Source of the DNA: a bacterium | GTDB lineage: Bacteria; ARS69 | Direction: 5' to 3' | Assembly: GCA_025774865.1 (NCBI GenBank) | Contig: JALGZO010000208.1 | Coordinates: forward strand, 1 to 14,263 | DNA: 14,263 bases | In this document: positions 5,439 to 13,931 of the stretch, one piece after another | Position numbering within the stretch: the first letter of the stretch is position 1 | How the letters are laid out: each line of letters starts with the position of its first letter | Notes under the pieces: generated by a model | Databases searched by the model: none | Told to the model about the DNA's origin: nothing | What the model saw: only the letters and a program-made list of their open reading frames with translations | Program-made: the position numbers and the translations under genes

Positions 5439-7151
5439 CTACTCGACGGCGGCATCGACCGCGGCGGCGATCGTGTTCTTCCCGTTGAGAGCGGCCAAGA
5501 AGGCCTTGTCATCCAAAAGGAGATCGATGGCGGCCTGCGCCTGCGTGTCGGCGCGAAGCTGCGCGCGATACCGACCCTCGGTGCCGTGCATCTTGGCGAG
5601 GATCTCGCGTTCGATCGCGGACACGACGTAGTCGCGATTCTTCTCGAAGTCCTTTGTCTCCTCGAAACCGATCCGCTCCGCGAGCATGTCCAGCGCGGTC
5701 AGCGTCTCCGGGTCGAACTCCGCGTCCGTCGCGACGTCGCGCAGGCGCTTGAGCTCGAACTCGGCCGCCGTTTCGTAGTCGAACTCCTGACCGTCCAGGT
5801 ACTCCCGAAACTCCTGAACGATGTTCTCCCCGACCCGAAAATCGATCGGAACGTCCGGATGCTCCGCCGTGTAGTTCACCGCGAAACGGAAGAAGTGGTT
5901 GCCCTGCTCGAGCTCGACCACGTAGCGCGTGAACCGGTCGCTCTCGACGATGATGTCCGGCTCGATACCGCCCGTGACGCCCGGCTCTTCTGTTCCTTCC
6001 ACGGGTGGCACTTCGTCCTCCCCGATCTCCTCGGCGTCTTCCTCGGCGTCTTCCTCGGCGTTGGCGTTCGCCAGCGCCGCGCCCTCTTCGTAGTCGCGCT
6101 GGATACAGCGCCCGGCCGGCGTGTACCACTTTGCGGTCGTCAGCTTGAGACTGGCGTCCCCGTCGAGAGGGATGAGAGTCTGAACCAGACCCTTGCCATA
6201 GGTGAGCTTGCCCATGATGACCGAACGGTTCGCGTCCTGTAGCGCTCCGGCGACGATCTCCGAGGCACTGGCCGTGCCCTCGTTCACGAGAACGACGAGC
6301 GGCACCTCGGTCGGGAGAGAGGGACGCTCCGACGCGTGGAACTCACTCCGATCGCGCCGCTGTCGGCCCTGGGTATAGGAGATGAGCTGACCCCGATCCA
6401 GGAACTTGTCCGAGACGGCCACCGCCTGCGTGAGCAGTCCTCCGTGATTCCAGCGGAGGTCGAAGACGATGCCCTCGGCGCCCTCGGCCACGAGATCCGC
6501 GAGCGCCTCTTCGACTTCCTTGCCCGAGTCCTCGCTGAACCGGACCAGCTTCACGTATCCGATGCCGTCGCGAACGATCCCGTGGTAGAGCACCGACTTG
6601 ATCTCGATCAGGTCGCGGACGATCTCGAACTCGAACGGCTGGTGCTCACCCTTTCGAGCGACCGTGATGTTGACCGGTGTGCCCTTCGGGCCGCGGAGCT
6701 TCTTGGCCGCCTCCGCGGTCGTGATGCCCTTCGTCGACTCGCCCTCGATCTTGACGATGCGGTCCCCCGCCCGGAGCCCGAGTCGGAACGCCGGCGTGCC
6801 CTCGATCGGCGAGACCACCGTGAGCCAGTCGTCGCGGATGTCGATGGAGATGCCCACGCCGCCGTACCGTCCCTGCGTCTCCTCCATCAGATCGCTGTAT
6901 TGCTTCTGCTCCAGGAACGCCGAGTGCGGATCCAGGGATTTCATCAACCCTTCGATGGAGGCGTAGATCAGATCCTTCGAATCGACTTCCTCGACGTACT
7001 TGTCGTAGACGTTCGCGAGGATCTGGTTGTAGGTCCGGAGGTTGTTATAGACGTTCTTCGACGCGGACGTGACCGACGCGCCCCCGACGAGCCCCAGGCC
7101 CACGAGGCAAAGAACGATGTATCGGCTGGCTGGTCTCTTCAGAGAGGGCAT
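5439..7151 (-). CDS. S41 carboxy-terminal processing protease with long C-terminal extension
   Basis: 570 residues from the ATG at 7151; AAGGA lies 10 nt upstream, and the protein then begins with a basic end and a hydrophobic export or anchor segment (11-30). Upstream codons in the same frame lack signal character. The layout is an N-terminal helical region with SLDPHSAFL (72-80), a PDZ domain (about 95-170) with GGVGISI and GLRAGDRIVKI, then the S41 core. The serine-lysine dyad is S295 (GTASASEI) and K320 (TYGKGLVQ), with Q324; the spacing of 25 and 4 residues matches CtpA/CtpB/Prc. The usual DLRNNPGG is DLRWNHGG here. After about residue 355 comes an acidic insert and then about 190 mostly helical residues. 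Family members cleave exported proteins near the C-terminus. The expected site is the periplasm, tethered or free. Confidence 0.94.
   Translation of the reverse strand: MPSLKRPASRYIVLCLVGLGLVGGASVTSASKNVYNNLRTYNQILANVYDKYVEEVDSKDLIYASIEGLMKSLDPHSAFLEQKQYSDLMEETQGRYGGVGISIDIRDDWLTVVSPIEGTPAFRLGLRAGDRIVKIEGESTKGITTAEAAKKLRGPKGTPVNITVARKGEHQPFEFEIVRDLIEIKSVLYHGIVRDGIGYVKLVRFSEDSGKEVEEALADLVAEGAEGIVFDLRWNHGGLLTQAVAVSDKFLDRGQLISYTQGRQRRDRSEFHASERPSLPTEVPLVVLVNEGTASASEIVAGALQDANRSVIMGKLTYGKGLVQTLIPLDGDASLKLTTAKWYTPAGRCIQRDYEEGAALANANAEEDAEEDAEEIGEDEVPPVEGTEEPGVTGGIEPDIIVESDRFTRYVVELEQGNHFFRFAVNYTAEHPDVPIDFRVGENIVQEFREYLDGQEFDYETAAEFELKRLRDVATDAEFDPETLTALDMLAERIGFEETKDFEKNRDYVVSAIEREILAKMHGTEGRYRAQLRADTQAQAAIDLLLDDKAFLAALNGKNTIAAAVDAAVE
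6024..6059 (+). repeat. 12-bp in-frame tandem repeat in protease gene
   Basis: Two exact copies of gtcttcctcggc (6036-6047 and 6048-6059) follow a diverged third copy (6024-6035). On the coding strand they give the repeated AEED/AEEI acidic units between the protease core and its C-terminal extension. The 12-bp period keeps the frame, so copy number could vary without breaking the protein. Confidence 0.8.
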
Positions 7152-7220
7152 CGATCTCTTTTCCTTCCGTGGACGGGCGACGGGACGCTTGATAGCGGCG
7201 AGGGGAAGATCACCGCTTGT

Positions 7221-7237
7221 TCGGACCATCGGTCCGA
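7221..7237. promoter_or_regulatory. Perfect inverted repeat upstream of protease gene
   Basis: tcggacc-atc-ggtccga has perfect 7-bp arms around a 3-nt centre, about 70 nt before the protease start. No T-run follows on either strand, so it is not a clear terminator. It could be an operator for a dimeric regulator or a small hairpin in the leader. No convincing -35/-10 pair was found in the surrounding 190-nt gap, so whether the protease has its own promoter is open. Confidence 0.35.
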
Positions 7238-7341
7238 GAATCCGTATTCCTTGAACCCGGAATCCCCCCAAAAGTGCCGCAGAGGGCTCCCCGCTACAAC
7301 TTCCGCCTCAACTCCTTGTCGGACAACACGTTGGAAAGCCC

Positions 7342-8967: not shown

Positions 8968-9615
8968 CTACCGGTAGAGGCCCTTCATCCTTCCCCAGGT
9001 CGACGGATCGACGCTGGTGGCCGTCTCGCAGACCCAGTCGATGTTGTACGCCTCCTCGAAGCCCGCGGGCGGGAAGATCGGCGGCGACTGGAACGCGATG
9101 AAGTCGTTCATCGCCATCGGCCCGTCGCACAGCAGGTCCCCGATACCGGCCCCACCGAGGAGCGCGACGTTACCGGTGACGTCCCAGTTGAACCCGGTGA
9201 AGTTCGGACGCTGCCCGGCCATGTTCGTGGCCACGCCCTCCAGGATCTTGGTGCCGTCGATAAACGTGCTCAGGTTTCCGTAGTCCGCGGCGGTGCCGTC
9301 GTCCTCGAAGATCTCGACGGACGCGTCGTCGAACTCGACGTTCAGAACCATCGGCGGAGCCTCATATGCGGCCGTCACCGTCGTGGTGATCACCACCGTG
9401 TACTGCTTGGTCTCGTCGAACGCGTACCACGGGTCGGGCTGGACGGCGTCGAGAGTAGCGTACACGATGTAGGTCTCGCCCACGTCGTACGATCCCGGGA
9501 CGCCGCCGGAGTGATCCGCGTATCCCGAGAAATGACCGTGGAGAGGATCCGCCATAGCCAGAGCGGGTATCGCCAGGACCAGCGCCGCCCCGACCATGAG
9601 AGAACGAACCTTCAT
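8968..9615 (-). CDS. Small secreted protein, second of tandem paralogues
   Basis: 215 residues; the ATG at 9615 is preceded by AGGGAGAAGCAG. Residues 1-22 form a clear signal peptide (basic MKVR, hydrophobic core, ALAMA). The mature part is acidic and predicted to be mostly beta strand, with runs such as QYTVVITTTVTAAY, and has two cysteines (DLLCDG and DWVCET). It ends with STWGRMKGLYR, which matches the end of the upstream neighbour (DTWANIKSLYR). Other shared points are VG followed by an aromatic strand, STF/STY-x-DG in mid-protein and an NFTG segment. Gap to the neighbour is 28 nt. I recognise no named family. Export and probable cell-surface or periplasmic location are inferred from the signal peptide; function is unknown. 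Confidence 0.85.
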   Translation of the reverse strand: MKVRSLMVGAALVLAIPALAMADPLHGHFSGYADHSGGVPGSYDVGETYIVYATLDAVQPDPWYAFDETKQYTVVITTTVTAAYEAPPMVLNVEFDDASVEIFEDDGTAADYGNLSTFIDGTKILEGVATNMAGQRPNFTGFNWDVTGNVALLGGAGIGDLLCDGPMAMNDFIAFQSPPIFPPAGFEEAYNIDWVCETATSVDPSTWGRMKGLYR

Positions 9616-9643
9616 CTGCTTCTCCCTAGCATGAGTGGCGCGG

Positions 9644-10291
9644 TCAGCGATACAGAGACTTGATGTTGGCCCAGGTGTCGTCCTCCACGCCGATGATCGT
9701 CAGAAAGACATCGCCGTTGACGAAGAGGTCATACCCCTCTGGGGAAACACCCGCGATGTTCGCGCCGAACGTCCAGCCGTCCGTGGCCTTCAGCAGCGGG
9801 AAGACGTCGCCTCCCGTGAAGTTCAACGTTCCGTTGAAGCTCCCGGAAGACGTGCTGGTGTTCAGCGTCAGGTTGAACTCGGTGAAGAACCCGTCGAGAT
9901 ACGTCGAGATGCCATCCTGGAACGTGCCCGGCGCCGTGGCGTTCGGCGGGTTGATACCGTAGTCGTGATTCGAAGGAAGCCAGTCCACGTAGATGGTGAA
10001 GAGGCCGCCCGAGTACGCGACGAGATGCAGGTCGTCGAAGACCGTCTCGCCGAGCGAGATCAAGTCGCGAACGTAGAAGGTGTACGAGTAGTTGTCCGTG
10101 TCCCACACCAGGGGATTCTCAATGTCGTTGAGCAGCCCCACCAGGTGGAATTCGTCACCTACGTTCGAGGAGGGGAATCCTCCATCCTCCCAAGCATTCC
10201 CGGATACGTGGAGAATCTGGGTCTCTTGCCCGAAGGCAGATCCGACCATTCCCACCAGGAAACAGAAAGAAAAAACGGTAGCCTTTTTCAT
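9644..10291 (-). CDS. Small secreted protein, first of tandem paralogues
   Basis: 215 residues from the ATG at 10291, which has GAGG 5 nt upstream. A longer open frame begins at a TTG at 10405, but its extra residues lack export character and would put the signal peptide inside the protein. The signal peptide spans about 1-21 (MKKATVFSF, ending AFGQ). The mature part is rich in Asn, Thr, Gly and aromatic residues, with alternating strand-like patterns (YSYTFYVRDL, GLFTIYVDWL) and no cysteine. It ends in DTWANIKSLYR. Its length is the same as that of the next gene, and the two share scattered motifs, so I read them as diverged duplicates in one transcription unit. No known family is recognised. 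Confidence 0.85.
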   Translation of the reverse strand: MKKATVFSFCFLVGMVGSAFGQETQILHVSGNAWEDGGFPSSNVGDEFHLVGLLNDIENPLVWDTDNYSYTFYVRDLISLGETVFDDLHLVAYSGGLFTIYVDWLPSNHDYGINPPNATAPGTFQDGISTYLDGFFTEFNLTLNTSTSSGSFNGTLNFTGGDVFPLLKATDGWTFGANIAGVSPEGYDLFVNGDVFLTIIGVEDDTWANIKSLYR

Positions 10292-10609: not shown

Positions 10610-11188
10610 CTACTGCACGCGAAGGAGCTTCCGGGTCCAACTCCTTCCCTGCGCGTCCATTCGGACGAAATAGACGCCCGTCGCGACCGGGAAGCCGGCG
10701 CGGTTCCGACCATCCCAGGTAATCCGGTGGGTGCCCTCGGGAAGTGTCCCGTCGTGGATCGTCGTGACCGCGCGACCCCGGAGATCAAAGACCCGCAGGA
10801 CGATCTCCGTCGGACGGACAACCTCGAGCCGGATCGCGGCCTCGTCCCGGAACGGATTCGGATGGGCGCCCAGGAGACGGGTCGAGCGCGGGGCGATGGA
10901 GACCCCTTCGTCCGCGCCGGTCATCACACCGTTCGCCAGGATCGAGAGATCTCCGCTGGCTCGGTTCACGACCGCCACGTCCACCCGGCCGTCCCGGTTC
11001 CAATCGCCGCCCGCCAGTGCGTACGGCGCGAGCCCCACGGGAAAGTCCGTGCCGTCGTCGTACGATCCACCCCCGAGATTGCGGAACACGGTGATGTCCG
11101 AGCCGCCGCTGTTCGCCGCCACGAGCTCGAGGTTTCCATCTCCGGTCAGATCTGCCCCCCAGGCCTGGCGAGGCAGGTCGCTCGTCAT
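10610..11188 (-). pseudogene. Out-of-frame C-terminal part of the FG-GAP protein, with FlgD-like sorting domain
   Basis: 192 codons from an ATG at 11188, in the +1 frame relative to the large upstream part, and so not an independent gene in origin. It completes the repeat protein: two more calcium-type loops (DLTGDGNLE and DWNRDGRVD) in FG-GAP units, then a FlgD/T9SS-like C-terminal domain from about residue 104 (AHPNPFRDEAAIRLEV, VLRVFDLRGRAV, ATGVYFVRMDAQG) ending TRKLLRVQ. Domains of this kind sit at the extreme C-terminus of many secreted proteins in the FCB group and related phyla, and in some lineages direct export. GGAG lies about 13 nt before the ATG, so weak re-initiation is possible but not shown. 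Conserved sense codons indicate that the fragment was under selection until recently, or that the break is an assembly error. Confidence 0.8.
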
Positions 11189-13757
11189 GAGCACGATCGT
11201 TCTCCAGAATCGAGAGGTGACCGCCACCGTAGTCGGCGGTGACGAGGTCGATCCACTCGTCGCCGTTCGTGTCCCACGGGAAGATCCCGACCGGGGTCGT
11301 ACCCGTACCGTAGATGCCGCCGGAGGAGAATCCGGACTCCTGGTCCCAAAGGAACACCTCGACCCGATGATTGCCGGAGTCGACGGAGATGATGTCGAGA
11401 TCTCCATCGCGGTCGACGTCCGAGACGGAAATGTCGAGCGCGACCCCCACGGCGCCGATGTCGTCCACGGCCGGAAAGGTCCCGTTGCCGTCGTTCCAAT
11501 AGACGTACACACCGTCGGGGTCGAGCTCCGCGACGGCGAGATCGAGGTCACCGTCCCGGTCGAAGTCGCCACCGTGGACTCCGAACGGAGCTCCGGTCGT
11601 CGCCCGGGCCGCGCCCGGCACGAGCGTCCCATCGCCGGCGTTCATCAAGAACGAGACGGAGCTGCCGACGAGATTCGCGACCGCTACGTCGGCGTAGCCG
11701 TCGCCGTCGAGATCACCGGTCCAGATCGCGATCGGTGCCGAACCGACGGCGTACGACGCGGAGACCGCGGGCAGGCCGTCGCCACCGGTCAGGAGCAGGG
11801 TCACGTCGTTCGACAGGTAGTTTGCGACGACCACGTCGCTCACCCCGTCGCCGTCGATTTCGACCGTCGCCAGATCCACCGGGTCCGTTCCCGGTAAGGG
11901 AATGGTCGTGACTCCGAAGGTCGTGGATGACACGGCGCCCTCCGCCATGAACTGGAACGCGAAACCGTCGTGCGGCACTCCTTCGCCGGATCGCACACTT
12001 CCGTTGCCGTTCACGGTCACCGTGACGATCTCACCGGGCAGGAATGGTGTCATCGGCGTGAGTGTCACCTGGTTCAGCCCCTCCAACCAGGTGACGTCGA
12101 CGACGTGCGGACCCGACTGATCTCCGTCGACGCGGAAGGCGGTGGGAATCAGAGACTGCGGGTCGAGCTCGGTGTCAAACCAGAGCTGCATCGCGCCCGC
12201 CAGCGGGGCGCCGGTCGCGTTCGCCGCCGGCTCGGTCAGAACGACTTCCGGAACCGGGGCCTGCTCGTAGTAGTACGTGTCCCGCGAGATCGCGTAGCCG
12301 GCCGCGACGTCGAGGTCTCCGTCCAGGTCCCAGTCGGCCACCCCGATCGTGTGGCAGTGCGTCCCGCCGGCCTGGAGCTCGCCCTGGCTGAATGCTCCAC
12401 TCCCGTCGTTCCACATGATCCGCCAGGCGTTCGGGGTGACGCCTCGGATGGGGATCGCCACGTCGAGGTCGAAATCCCCGTCGATGTCCGCCACCTGGAT
12501 ACCGTAGGGCAGCGTCCCGCCGACCGGGAAATGGGTCGGCGTCTCGAACGTGCCGTCGCCACGACCCTCGAGGAAGCTGATCGATCCAGGACCGGCGTTC
12601 ACGGTGACCACGTCCGCATGACCATCGCCGTTGAAATCACGCACTTCCAGGAAGTTCGGACTCTCCTGGACGCCGATGAGGGGCGTCTGCACGGACAGGT
12701 TCCCCTCGCCGTCGTTGTGGAAGACGCTCACGTTCGACGAGTAACCGTTGCAGCACACGAGATCGATGTCGCCGTCCCCGTCCAGATCCGTACCGTCCAC
12801 CCAGCGCGGGCTGTCGGCGCCCGGCCCCGCCGTGTAGTCCACGGGCGCCGCAAAAGAGCCGTCGCCAGAGTTCTCGAGCACGGAGAGACTGTGACCGTTG
12901 AAGTTCGCGGTCACGACGTCGAGGTCTCCGTCCGCGTCGAGGTCACCGGCGAACGCACCGTAGGGGGTCTGGCCGGTCGGGTAGGTAAGGTACGGCGCGA
13001 GGTTTCCTCCCCCCTCGTTCCGGTAGATCGCGATCTCGTCCGGCCCCGATGCGCAGCAGACGAGGTCCACCGCACCATCGTTGTCGACATCCGCCGCCAC
13101 GACATGACGCGGCAGAATCGGAGACGGCAATTGTGCCCAGGAGGTGAAGCCTCCGAGACCGTCGGGCGTGAGCATCGTGAGTGAGTCCGGAACCACGTTC
13201 GAAAAGACGAGCTCGGGAAGCCGGTCACCTTGAAGATCCACTACCGTCACGTTCAGCGCGACGCTTCCGATGCTCCAGCTCTCTTCGGCGGGGACGAAGC
13301 TCGCCCCCGGCATCGGAGCGGACCATGTCGTGAACTCCAGGTTGAAGCCGTTCGACAGGGGGTCGCCCAGTAAATCGGTCACGTCCTTGGTCACGGTCAC
13401 CACGATGCGCTCGCCGGAGATGAAGTTCTCGTCCGGCGTCAGCGTGATCACACGCTGGCCGGGATCCCAGGTGACGGTGGCCGGCACCGGGCCGCGGATG
13501 TGACCGGTTGCATAAACCGAACTCGATGAGATCGTGGTGGGATCCAGGCGATTCGCGAAGTGAATCTTGACCGATCGGTTCAGGCCGACGCCCACGCTCT
13601 GGTTCGAAGGATCCGTGGAAGTGACGAAGGGGGCCGCGACGGCCGGCTCCGAGATGATCGTCGACGTTACGAGCGCGCCCAGGGCAGCGACCCGCTGAGC
13701 GATCAGCCACGGGAAGGCGACTACGAAGCGACCGTGTCGGCACGGGGTGCGAGTCAT
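10785..13757 (-). CDS. Secreted FG-GAP/VCBS repeat protein with Ig-like domains, frameshifted near its 3' end
   Basis: 990 codons from the ATG at 13757, chosen because a signal peptide follows (about 11-42) and GGGGGA lies upstream. An Ig-like domain of SbsA/Big_5 type occupies about 44-145 (TSTDPSNQSVGVGLNRSVKI, TLTPDENF). A first FG-GAP block (about 165-500) and a second (about 625-853) flank another Ig-like domain at about 502-605 (TEPAANATGAPLAG). Eleven calcium-type loops are visible, for example DLDADGDLD, DLDGDGDID, DFDRDGDLD and DVDRDGDLD; DLQGDRLPE at about 174 is a degenerate one. Such repeats form beta-propellers that bind calcium and ligands at the cell surface. After N853 the frame becomes nonsense (arginine-rich, about 137 residues to the stop at 10785) while the true continuation is in another frame. 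In-phase length would be about 1,045 residues. Confidence 0.85.
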   Translation of the reverse strand: MTRTPCRHGRFVVAFPWLIAQRVAALGALVTSTIISEPAVAAPFVTSTDPSNQSVGVGLNRSVKIHFANRLDPTTISSSSVYATGHIRGPVPATVTWDPGQRVITLTPDENFISGERIVVTVTKDVTDLLGDPLSNGFNLEFTTWSAPMPGASFVPAEESWSIGSVALNVTVVDLQGDRLPELVFSNVVPDSLTMLTPDGLGGFTSWAQLPSPILPRHVVAADVDNDGAVDLVCCASGPDEIAIYRNEGGGNLAPYLTYPTGQTPYGAFAGDLDADGDLDVVTANFNGHSLSVLENSGDGSFAAPVDYTAGPGADSPRWVDGTDLDGDGDIDLVCCNGYSSNVSVFHNDGEGNLSVQTPLIGVQESPNFLEVRDFNGDGHADVVTVNAGPGSISFLEGRGDGTFETPTHFPVGGTLPYGIQVADIDGDFDLDVAIPIRGVTPNAWRIMWNDGSGAFSQGELQAGGTHCHTIGVADWDLDGDLDVAAGYAISRDTYYYEQAPVPEVVLTEPAANATGAPLAGAMQLWFDTELDPQSLIPTAFRVDGDQSGPHVVDVTWLEGLNQVTLTPMTPFLPGEIVTVTVNGNGSVRSGEGVPHDGFAFQFMAEGAVSSTTFGVTTIPLPGTDPVDLATVEIDGDGVSDVVVANYLSNDVTLLLTGGDGLPAVSASYAVGSAPIAIWTGDLDGDGYADVAVANLVGSSVSFLMNAGDGTLVPGAARATTGAPFGVHGGDFDRDGDLDLAVAELDPDGVYVYWNDGNGTFPAVDDIGAVGVALDISVSDVDRDGDLDIISVDSGNHRVEVFLWDQESGFSSGGIYGTGTTPVGIFPWDTNGDEWIDLVTADYGGGHLSILENDRAHDERPASPGLGGRSDRRWKPRARGGEQRRLGHHRVPQSRGWIVRRRHGLSRGARAVRTGGRRLEPGRPGGRGGREPSQRRSLDPGERCDDRRGRRGLHRPALDPSPGRPSESVPGRGRDPARGCPSDGDRPAGL
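11185..11200 (-). other. Frameshift junction in the FG-GAP gene
   Basis: The frame reads LSILEN up to about 11201, and the correct sequence resumes as TSDLPRQAWGADL in the +1 frame from about 11185. Neighbouring repeat units have about 24 residues between the EN/RN/MN strand end and the next calcium loop; here only about 46 nt remain, against the expected 72. The shortfall of about 26 nt is 2 modulo 3, which is exactly what produces this shift. A short deletion therefore fits better than a one-base error. No slippery heptamer is evident. Confidence 0.75.
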
Positions 13758-13858
13758 GATGCGGATTCCCCCGGAGCGGGAACGACGATCCGGAAGCCGG
13801 TTCGATTCAATGCCCTGATCGGAACGCTCCGAAGTGGGCAGGCACTCCGCGAGCCCCG

Positions 13859-13888
13859 ATGATAGAGGGCCGATGGGCGGGGTTTCAA
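13859..13888 (-). promoter_or_regulatory. Sigma-70-type promoter for the FG-GAP repeat gene
   Basis: On the minus strand TTGAAA (13888-13883), an 18-nt spacer and TATCAT (13864-13859) each match 5 of 6 consensus bases. This is the best promoter in the window. It lies directly after the rpmI terminator and would give a leader of about 95 nt before the ATG at 13757. Confidence 0.6.
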
Positions 13889-13900
13889 CCGAAGCCGCCA

Positions 13901-13931
13901 CGAAATAGGCCCGGGGAGCGTTCCCCGGGCC
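13901..13931 (-). terminator. Hairpin terminator after rpmI
   Basis: Perfect 10-bp arms ggcccgggga (13908-13917) and tccccgggcc (13922-13931) enclose a 4-nt loop. On the minus strand the stem is followed by TATTTCG, a short T-rich tail. It starts about 38 nt after the rpmI stop, so it closes the rpmI transcript. The tail is modest, but the stem is very strong. Confidence 0.75.

Follow-up and report, generated by a model that had tools for sequence, protein, structure and literature searches.

The last ten residues of two adjacent exported proteins encoded on a bacterial contig probably represent a portable, terminus-locked C-terminal tag by which exported proteins are sorted or anchored, a reading to which a probability of about 0.7 is given in the absence of any experiment. 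The existence of the tag, its strict terminal position, its modularity, its link to signal peptides, its multi-phylum distribution and its lack of a membrane-spanning segment were all established. The proposal of the initial annotation, which from sequence alone had suggested a sorting, anchoring or processing signal, is thereby supported as a class of explanation, although which of these biochemical steps applies was not shown.

A tandem pair of exported paralogues

The window, i.e. the whole stretch of 14,263 nucleotides that was analysed, corresponds to contig C211 of assembly G000 (4.7 Mb, 785 contigs). The features of the tagged pair, with strand and source, are as follows:

8968..9615 (-): tagged exported protein 1, 215 aa (ORF list; signal peptide by inspection)
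9550..9615 (-): signal peptide of protein 1, residues 1-22, MKVRSLMVGAALVLAIPALAMA (heuristic prediction, not SignalP)
9028..9543 (-): beta-rich mature domain of protein 1, residues 25-196 (AlphaFold2 model)
8971..9000 (-): C-terminal tag TWGRMKGLYR of protein 1, residues 206-215 (sequence)
9644..10291 (-): tagged exported protein 2, 215 aa, paralogue of protein 1 (ORF list; alignment)
10226..10291 (-): signal peptide of protein 2, residues 1-22, MKKATVFSFCFLVGMVGSAFGQ (heuristic prediction, not SignalP)
9647..9676 (-): C-terminal tag TWANIKSLYR of protein 2, residues 206-215 (sequence)

The initial description of two adjacent exported 215-residue proteins with diverged bodies and near-identical last 11 residues (STWGRMKGLYR and DTWANIKSLYR respectively) held: alignment yielded 42 identities over 193 positions (~22%) before the last 11 residues, and six out of 11 in the tail. 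Proteins 1 and 2 are true, ordinary paralogues, homologous throughout, and it is the tail that constitutes the unit of interest. An alignment of 11 family members gave a mean pairwise identity of 29% for the body versus 67% for the last 10 residues, with the tail better conserved than the body in 54 of the 55 pairs, and the check proposed earlier, whether conservation is limited to the tail, was thus answered in the affirmative. What had been understated was the extent of the tail, which is not specific to the family of this pair. No Pfam or NCBIfam family was matched above cut-off by either protein, and the choice-of-anchor V model (NF041895) gave no match in the pair. The two tails are separated by synonymous codon differences (L CTC/CTG, Y TAC/TAT, R CGG/CGC, stop TAG/TGA), which argues for selection on the protein rather than for recently copied DNA.

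The pair is syntenic in G004, a genome of another genus, where the orthologues of proteins 1 and 2 are 46.8% and 70.2% identical respectively. Synteny extends to the surroundings, comprising DUF58, MoxR, an S41 peptidase, two HEAT-repeat genes and a large VCBS-type gene, with extra genes in G004 between the HEAT genes and the tagged pair. The large VCBS/FG-GAP-like gene of the window, at 10610-13901 (-), is apparently split by a frameshift near 11.2 kb: the ORFs 10785-13901 and 10610-11632, which occupy different frames, overlap, and an assembly error is possible. Its true end, GVYFVRMDAQGRSWTRKLLRVQ, resembles a type A T9SS/FlgD-like C-terminus.

Distribution and anatomy of the tag

Further copies of the tail were sought with a degenerate DNA pattern (W-x2-hydrophobic-K-x-L-Y/F-R-stop), the reversed pattern serving as control. 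The genome of the window returned 14 exact matches, and 25 when one mismatch was allowed, while the reversed control returned none, from which it is evident that recurrence within this genome lies far above chance. Within the same phylum, 12-25 exact matches were present in each of the five genomes examined, and in a second phylum, that of G029, the tag was detected in 70 of 80 genomes, with copy numbers of mostly ~5-35 in f26, its main family, and in f57, and usually 0-4 in the other families. In a 251-genome sample spread over bacteria, 13 genomes (five of the window's own family, G029/G060, G151/G291, G181/G318, G217 and G276) contained five or more copies, and nearly all others had none or one; the tag is thus abundant in six sampled lineages, namely the phylum of the window, that of G029 and four more, and essentially absent from the ~240 other genomes. 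Confinement of the motif to this pair, which had been named in advance as an outcome that would refute the signal, is therefore excluded by the 14 exact matches in the same genome and by the occurrence of the tag in several phyla. Tag-bearing named records include Candidatus Eisenbacteria, Candidatus Krumholzibacteriia, 'Gemmatimonadota' DHS20C21 (judged from matching coordinates to be the assembly of G004) and UBP1, a listing that is incomplete and does not amount to a census.

As a practical outcome, a one-line sequence rule picks out exported proteins that would otherwise escape annotation, about 10-35 in each genome, and does so in lineages with hardly any cultured members, Candidatus Eisenbacteria and Krumholzibacteriia among them. 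Tagged paralogues were also observed in tandem arrays, at G004:C68:2831-5144 (four copies ~750 bp apart) and at L157 and L166, which may indicate that tagged genes often duplicate locally.

The consensus of the tag is [S/T]-W-[G/S]-x-[V/I]-K-x-L-[Y/F]-R, ten residues with the stop codon directly after. Over 165 distinct tails, the columns on the linker side read V/T at -16, P/S at -15, V at -14 and E (53%) at -13; those of the first half S/T (90%) at -10, W at -9, G at -8 and V/I (92%) at -6; and those of the end K at -5, a small residue at -4, L at -3, Y (70%) or F (29%) at -2 and R at -1. The invariance of W, K, L, Y/F and R in the collected tails is partly circular because these residues were set by the search pattern, and the same applies to G at -8, likewise preset in the scan of named genomes; when that position was left free in the genome of the window, G was found in 11 of the 14 matches. 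The informative columns are those left free, namely the S/T that precedes W and the tendency towards V-P-V-E further upstream. Among the 11 one-mismatch matches from the same genome, W and K were never altered, the changes falling in L, Y, R or the stop. Similarly, near-tags, for which only W-x3-K near the end was required, retained W and K, and mostly S/T before W and Y/F, with variation in L and the last residue and position -3 the loosest. Charge is confined to a single K (-5) and a single terminal R (-1), without any basic cluster. Codons at the conserved positions are synonymously mixed across tagged genes, and selection therefore acts on the tag as protein.

The terminal lock was evident when tagged proteins and their surrounding ORFs were considered together: W..[VIML]K.L[YF]R occurred 173 times at the terminus versus three times internally, and the shorter core WGx[VIML]K 173 times at -9 versus twice internally. 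At locus L085, in a Candidatus Eisenbacteria genome, a run of tagged, lipoprotein-like proteins was noted, in which two of the tag-like sequences carry short extensions, AWSDIKSLFRVAASKR and FWSDLKELFRPNGEYGP, and so are rare exceptions to the lock.

So strict a terminal position would suit a reader of the carboxylate, and hence a processing or quality-control signal, whereby a PDZ-containing tail-specific S41/CTP protease recognises the free C-terminus and trims or degrades the carrier. Also in favour of this explanation, the same strand run of the window encodes, at 5439-7271 (-), a C-terminal processing peptidase of the S41 family that exceeds the cut-off of TIGR00225. Its gene, which is syntenic in G004, lies upstream of a Bat-like run (MoxR/DUF58/VWA). 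Against it, the linkage to S41 was seen within one family only, and the tag is restricted whereas S41 peptidases are near-universal in bacteria. Tail-specific proteases, moreover, prefer nonpolar C-termini, and -LYR is not of that kind. A protease signal is consequently considered unlikely.

Carriers and structure

The collected set comprised 162 tagged proteins with a length of 80 aa or more and a median of 239 aa; four appear lipoprotein-like. A signal peptide was recognised in 148 of 158 untruncated tagged proteins (~94%) with a loose heuristic rather than SignalP, and in 140 of the 158 with a strict heuristic, versus 100 of 466 neighbouring ORFs. After removal of the last 18 residues, the 162 proteins fell into 63 BLAST clusters, 44 of which were singletons. 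Recognised carriers included plastocyanin-like/cupredoxin (L006), beta-helix, NHL beta-propeller, CHRD, lamin-tail (LTD) and DNRLRE proteins. One carrier, L100, is a choice-of-anchor V protein (NF041895: 107.9 bits against a cut-off of 42, residues 30-189 of 212) with the tag at 203-212, the position where other members of that family have another C-terminal anchor; it also weakly matches a MYXO-CTERM-anchored family. A further carrier, L069, resembles the PEP-CTERM protein ScyF, the match being below cut-off. The tag is thus portable and present on unrelated exported proteins.

An AlphaFold2 model of protein 1, built from the 11-member family alignment, placed a beta-rich domain at residues 25-196, then a linker and, at 204-213, a helix standing apart from the domain: mean pLDDT was 81.9 overall, and ~54, i.e. 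low confidence, for the tail helix. The model of an unrelated carrier (L010 family) likewise contained a separate helix, at 232-242, also of low confidence. A Foldseek search of the protein 1 fold against the PDB produced nothing at E<=0.001, only weak barrel-like matches being returned. Both models, although of unrelated carriers, detach the tail from the domain as a helix, and the tail is therefore not that domain's final strand. The second outcome that would have refuted the initial annotation, namely that the motif is merely such a strand of a known domain, failed on this ground and in the face of at least 63 unrelated clusters. The corresponding rival, that the tail is the ordinary last secondary-structure element of one family, common to two paralogues, draws support from the homology of the window proteins over their whole length; it is all but excluded by the diversity of the carriers, the detachment of the modelled helix and a conservation of the tail far exceeding that of the body.

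Hydropathy was low throughout the last 45 residues (median best 19-residue GRAVY 0.54, with one protein out of 162 above 1.6), and the tail therefore has no transmembrane segment. A different means of membrane association would be an in-plane anchor, in which an amphipathic basic helix binds to the face of either membrane, inner or outer, with no receptor involved. The lack of a transmembrane segment is compatible with such an arrangement, as is a ten-residue helix bearing W, V/I, L and Y/F plus K and R. However, a lipid-binding helix should tolerate exchanges among hydrophobic residues and between K and R, while near-tags keep W and K and the free terminus is fixed; the restricted distribution, moreover, would remain unexplained. 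This alternative, too, is regarded as improbable.

Search for machinery and comparison with known C-terminal signals

No dedicated partner gene emerged when 2,990 ORFs from the vicinity of tagged genes were clustered, in that no recurrent unknown family was found. The sole large neighbour cluster (41 loci) probably consists of large exported proteins with type A CTD-like ends, although its members were not individually analysed. A PorV-family gene lay beside tagged genes in one case only, L086, and the neighbourhoods of SprA were the same in tag-rich and tag-poor genomes, with no tag-specific gene. The lack of a partner gene beside either tagged genes or SprA is as expected if the substrates are scattered.

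These results bear on a further rival, which remains possible: a structural docking tag that involves no translocation, the tail binding a periplasmic or surface scaffold and thereby holding the carrier in place. By analogy with dockerins and cargo-loading peptides, an outer-membrane protein, a peptidoglycan-linked protein or an S-layer-like lattice might serve as the scaffold. A short conserved helix after a linker, the near-invariance of W and K even in near-tags and the many unrelated carriers all favour this view; against it, no recurrent scaffold gene adjoins tagged genes, and no data here distinguish retention from export.

In the preferred reading, that of a sorting or anchoring tag, the role of the helix as a docking ligand and the delivery of the carrier to the surface are both inferred. 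The carrier would be taken across the inner membrane by Sec with removal of its signal peptide, and the mature domain would fold in the periplasm, leaving the tag to project, via a short linker (often V/T-P/S-V-E-x-x), as a short, basic helix whose carboxylate is free. A putative periplasmic or outer-membrane receptor would then read W, K, Y/F, R and the terminus, and hand the carrier to the surface or to an anchor, whether for delivery or retention. The tag would accordingly represent a terminus-locked sorting signal without a membrane anchor, the reader protein of which can now be sought by phylogenetic profiling.

It is possible, but speculative, that the receptor is a PorV-family outer-membrane protein and the exit the SprA channel, in which case the tag would be a second, non-CTD class of type IX address, and type IX secretion would accept an address much smaller than the first. 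SprA was present in 13 of 13 tag-rich genomes versus 70 of 251 overall, in a sample that is not phylogenetically independent. Within the G029 phylum, however, members poor in tags encode SprA equally, and the same holds for PorV-family genes in tag-poor genomes, so that the association with type IX secretion may reflect no more than shared ancestry. Furthermore, no SprA match was obtained in G085, a 90% complete genome with 11 tags that lies outside the 13-genome set. The tag-bearing genomes tested contained 7-18 PorV-family genes each, together with 49-140 type A CTDs. Expansion of PorV/PorQ-family outer-membrane proteins was noted in G000-G004, G029, G151, G217 and others, well in excess of the two such proteins, PorV and PorQ, known in P. 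gingivalis. Type IX secretion hence remains a candidate route that has not been demonstrated. A bolder reading, which on balance is not favoured, would invoke a hitherto unknown route of export or surface anchoring, served by a receptor or transpeptidase of its own and operating across several FCB-type phyla independently of exosortase-like enzymes and of the type IX CTD route.

Type IX CTDs comprise types A, B and C, either long (~70-80 aa) or short (~40-55 aa), and form beta-sandwiches or three-stranded sheets with GxY motifs; the P. gingivalis proteins PorU, PorZ and PPAD tolerate C-terminal extension (PMC11285876, PMC11969387). The tag resembles them in being a signal at the C-terminus of proteins exported by Sec and in lacking a transmembrane segment, but differs in being ~10 residues long, helical (in low-confidence models) and strictly terminal, on carriers that share no upstream domain. 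A type A-like GxYxxR/K motif occurred within the last 110 residues of none of the tagged proteins, and no T9SS model (TIGR04183 or the like) featured among the 25 families listed for 105 tagged proteins, a check that left out 15 further single weak matches. Identity with a type IX CTD was rejected, the tail being no beta domain of 40-100 aa and having neither CTD model nor motif.

No Pfam or NCBIfam model describing the tag was present in the libraries searched, and the open-access literature searched held nothing relevant on the motif or on C-terminal or signal-peptide work in Eisenbacteria or Krumholzibacter. Within those limits, the tag would appear to be undescribed.

The architecture of tripartite CTERM signals (PEP-CTERM, LPXTG, GlyGly-CTERM, MYXO-CTERM) has been set out previously (PMC1569441, PMC3237569, PMC11980579). 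The exosortase PF09721 was present in nine of 19 tag-bearing genomes and missing from the other ten, including G029 (20 tags) and G181 (34 tags), both estimated to be 100% complete, and was on that basis rejected as the partner of the tag. Identity with a tripartite CTERM signal was likewise rejected, since the defining transmembrane helix is missing near the tag and there is no basic cluster. Unlike those signals, the tag has neither a transmembrane helix nor a distal Arg cluster, and its conserved residues are the very last. What it has in common with the PEP-CTERM/exosortase, GlyGly-CTERM/rhombosortase, MYXO-CTERM/myxosortase and LPXTG/sortase systems is a short C-terminal homology on many unrelated signal-peptide carriers, a carrier criterion that the signal-peptide and cluster counts given above confirm as met, in addition to several to dozens of copies per genome, few known carrier families and the presence of choice-of-anchor carriers. 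The choice-of-anchor families of NCBIfam (e.g. NF041895) illustrate the relationship most directly: the mature domain of L100 qualifies in full for membership, yet the protein ends in the tag, which no NCBIfam model covers, the choice-of-anchor models naming the carrier and not the tag.
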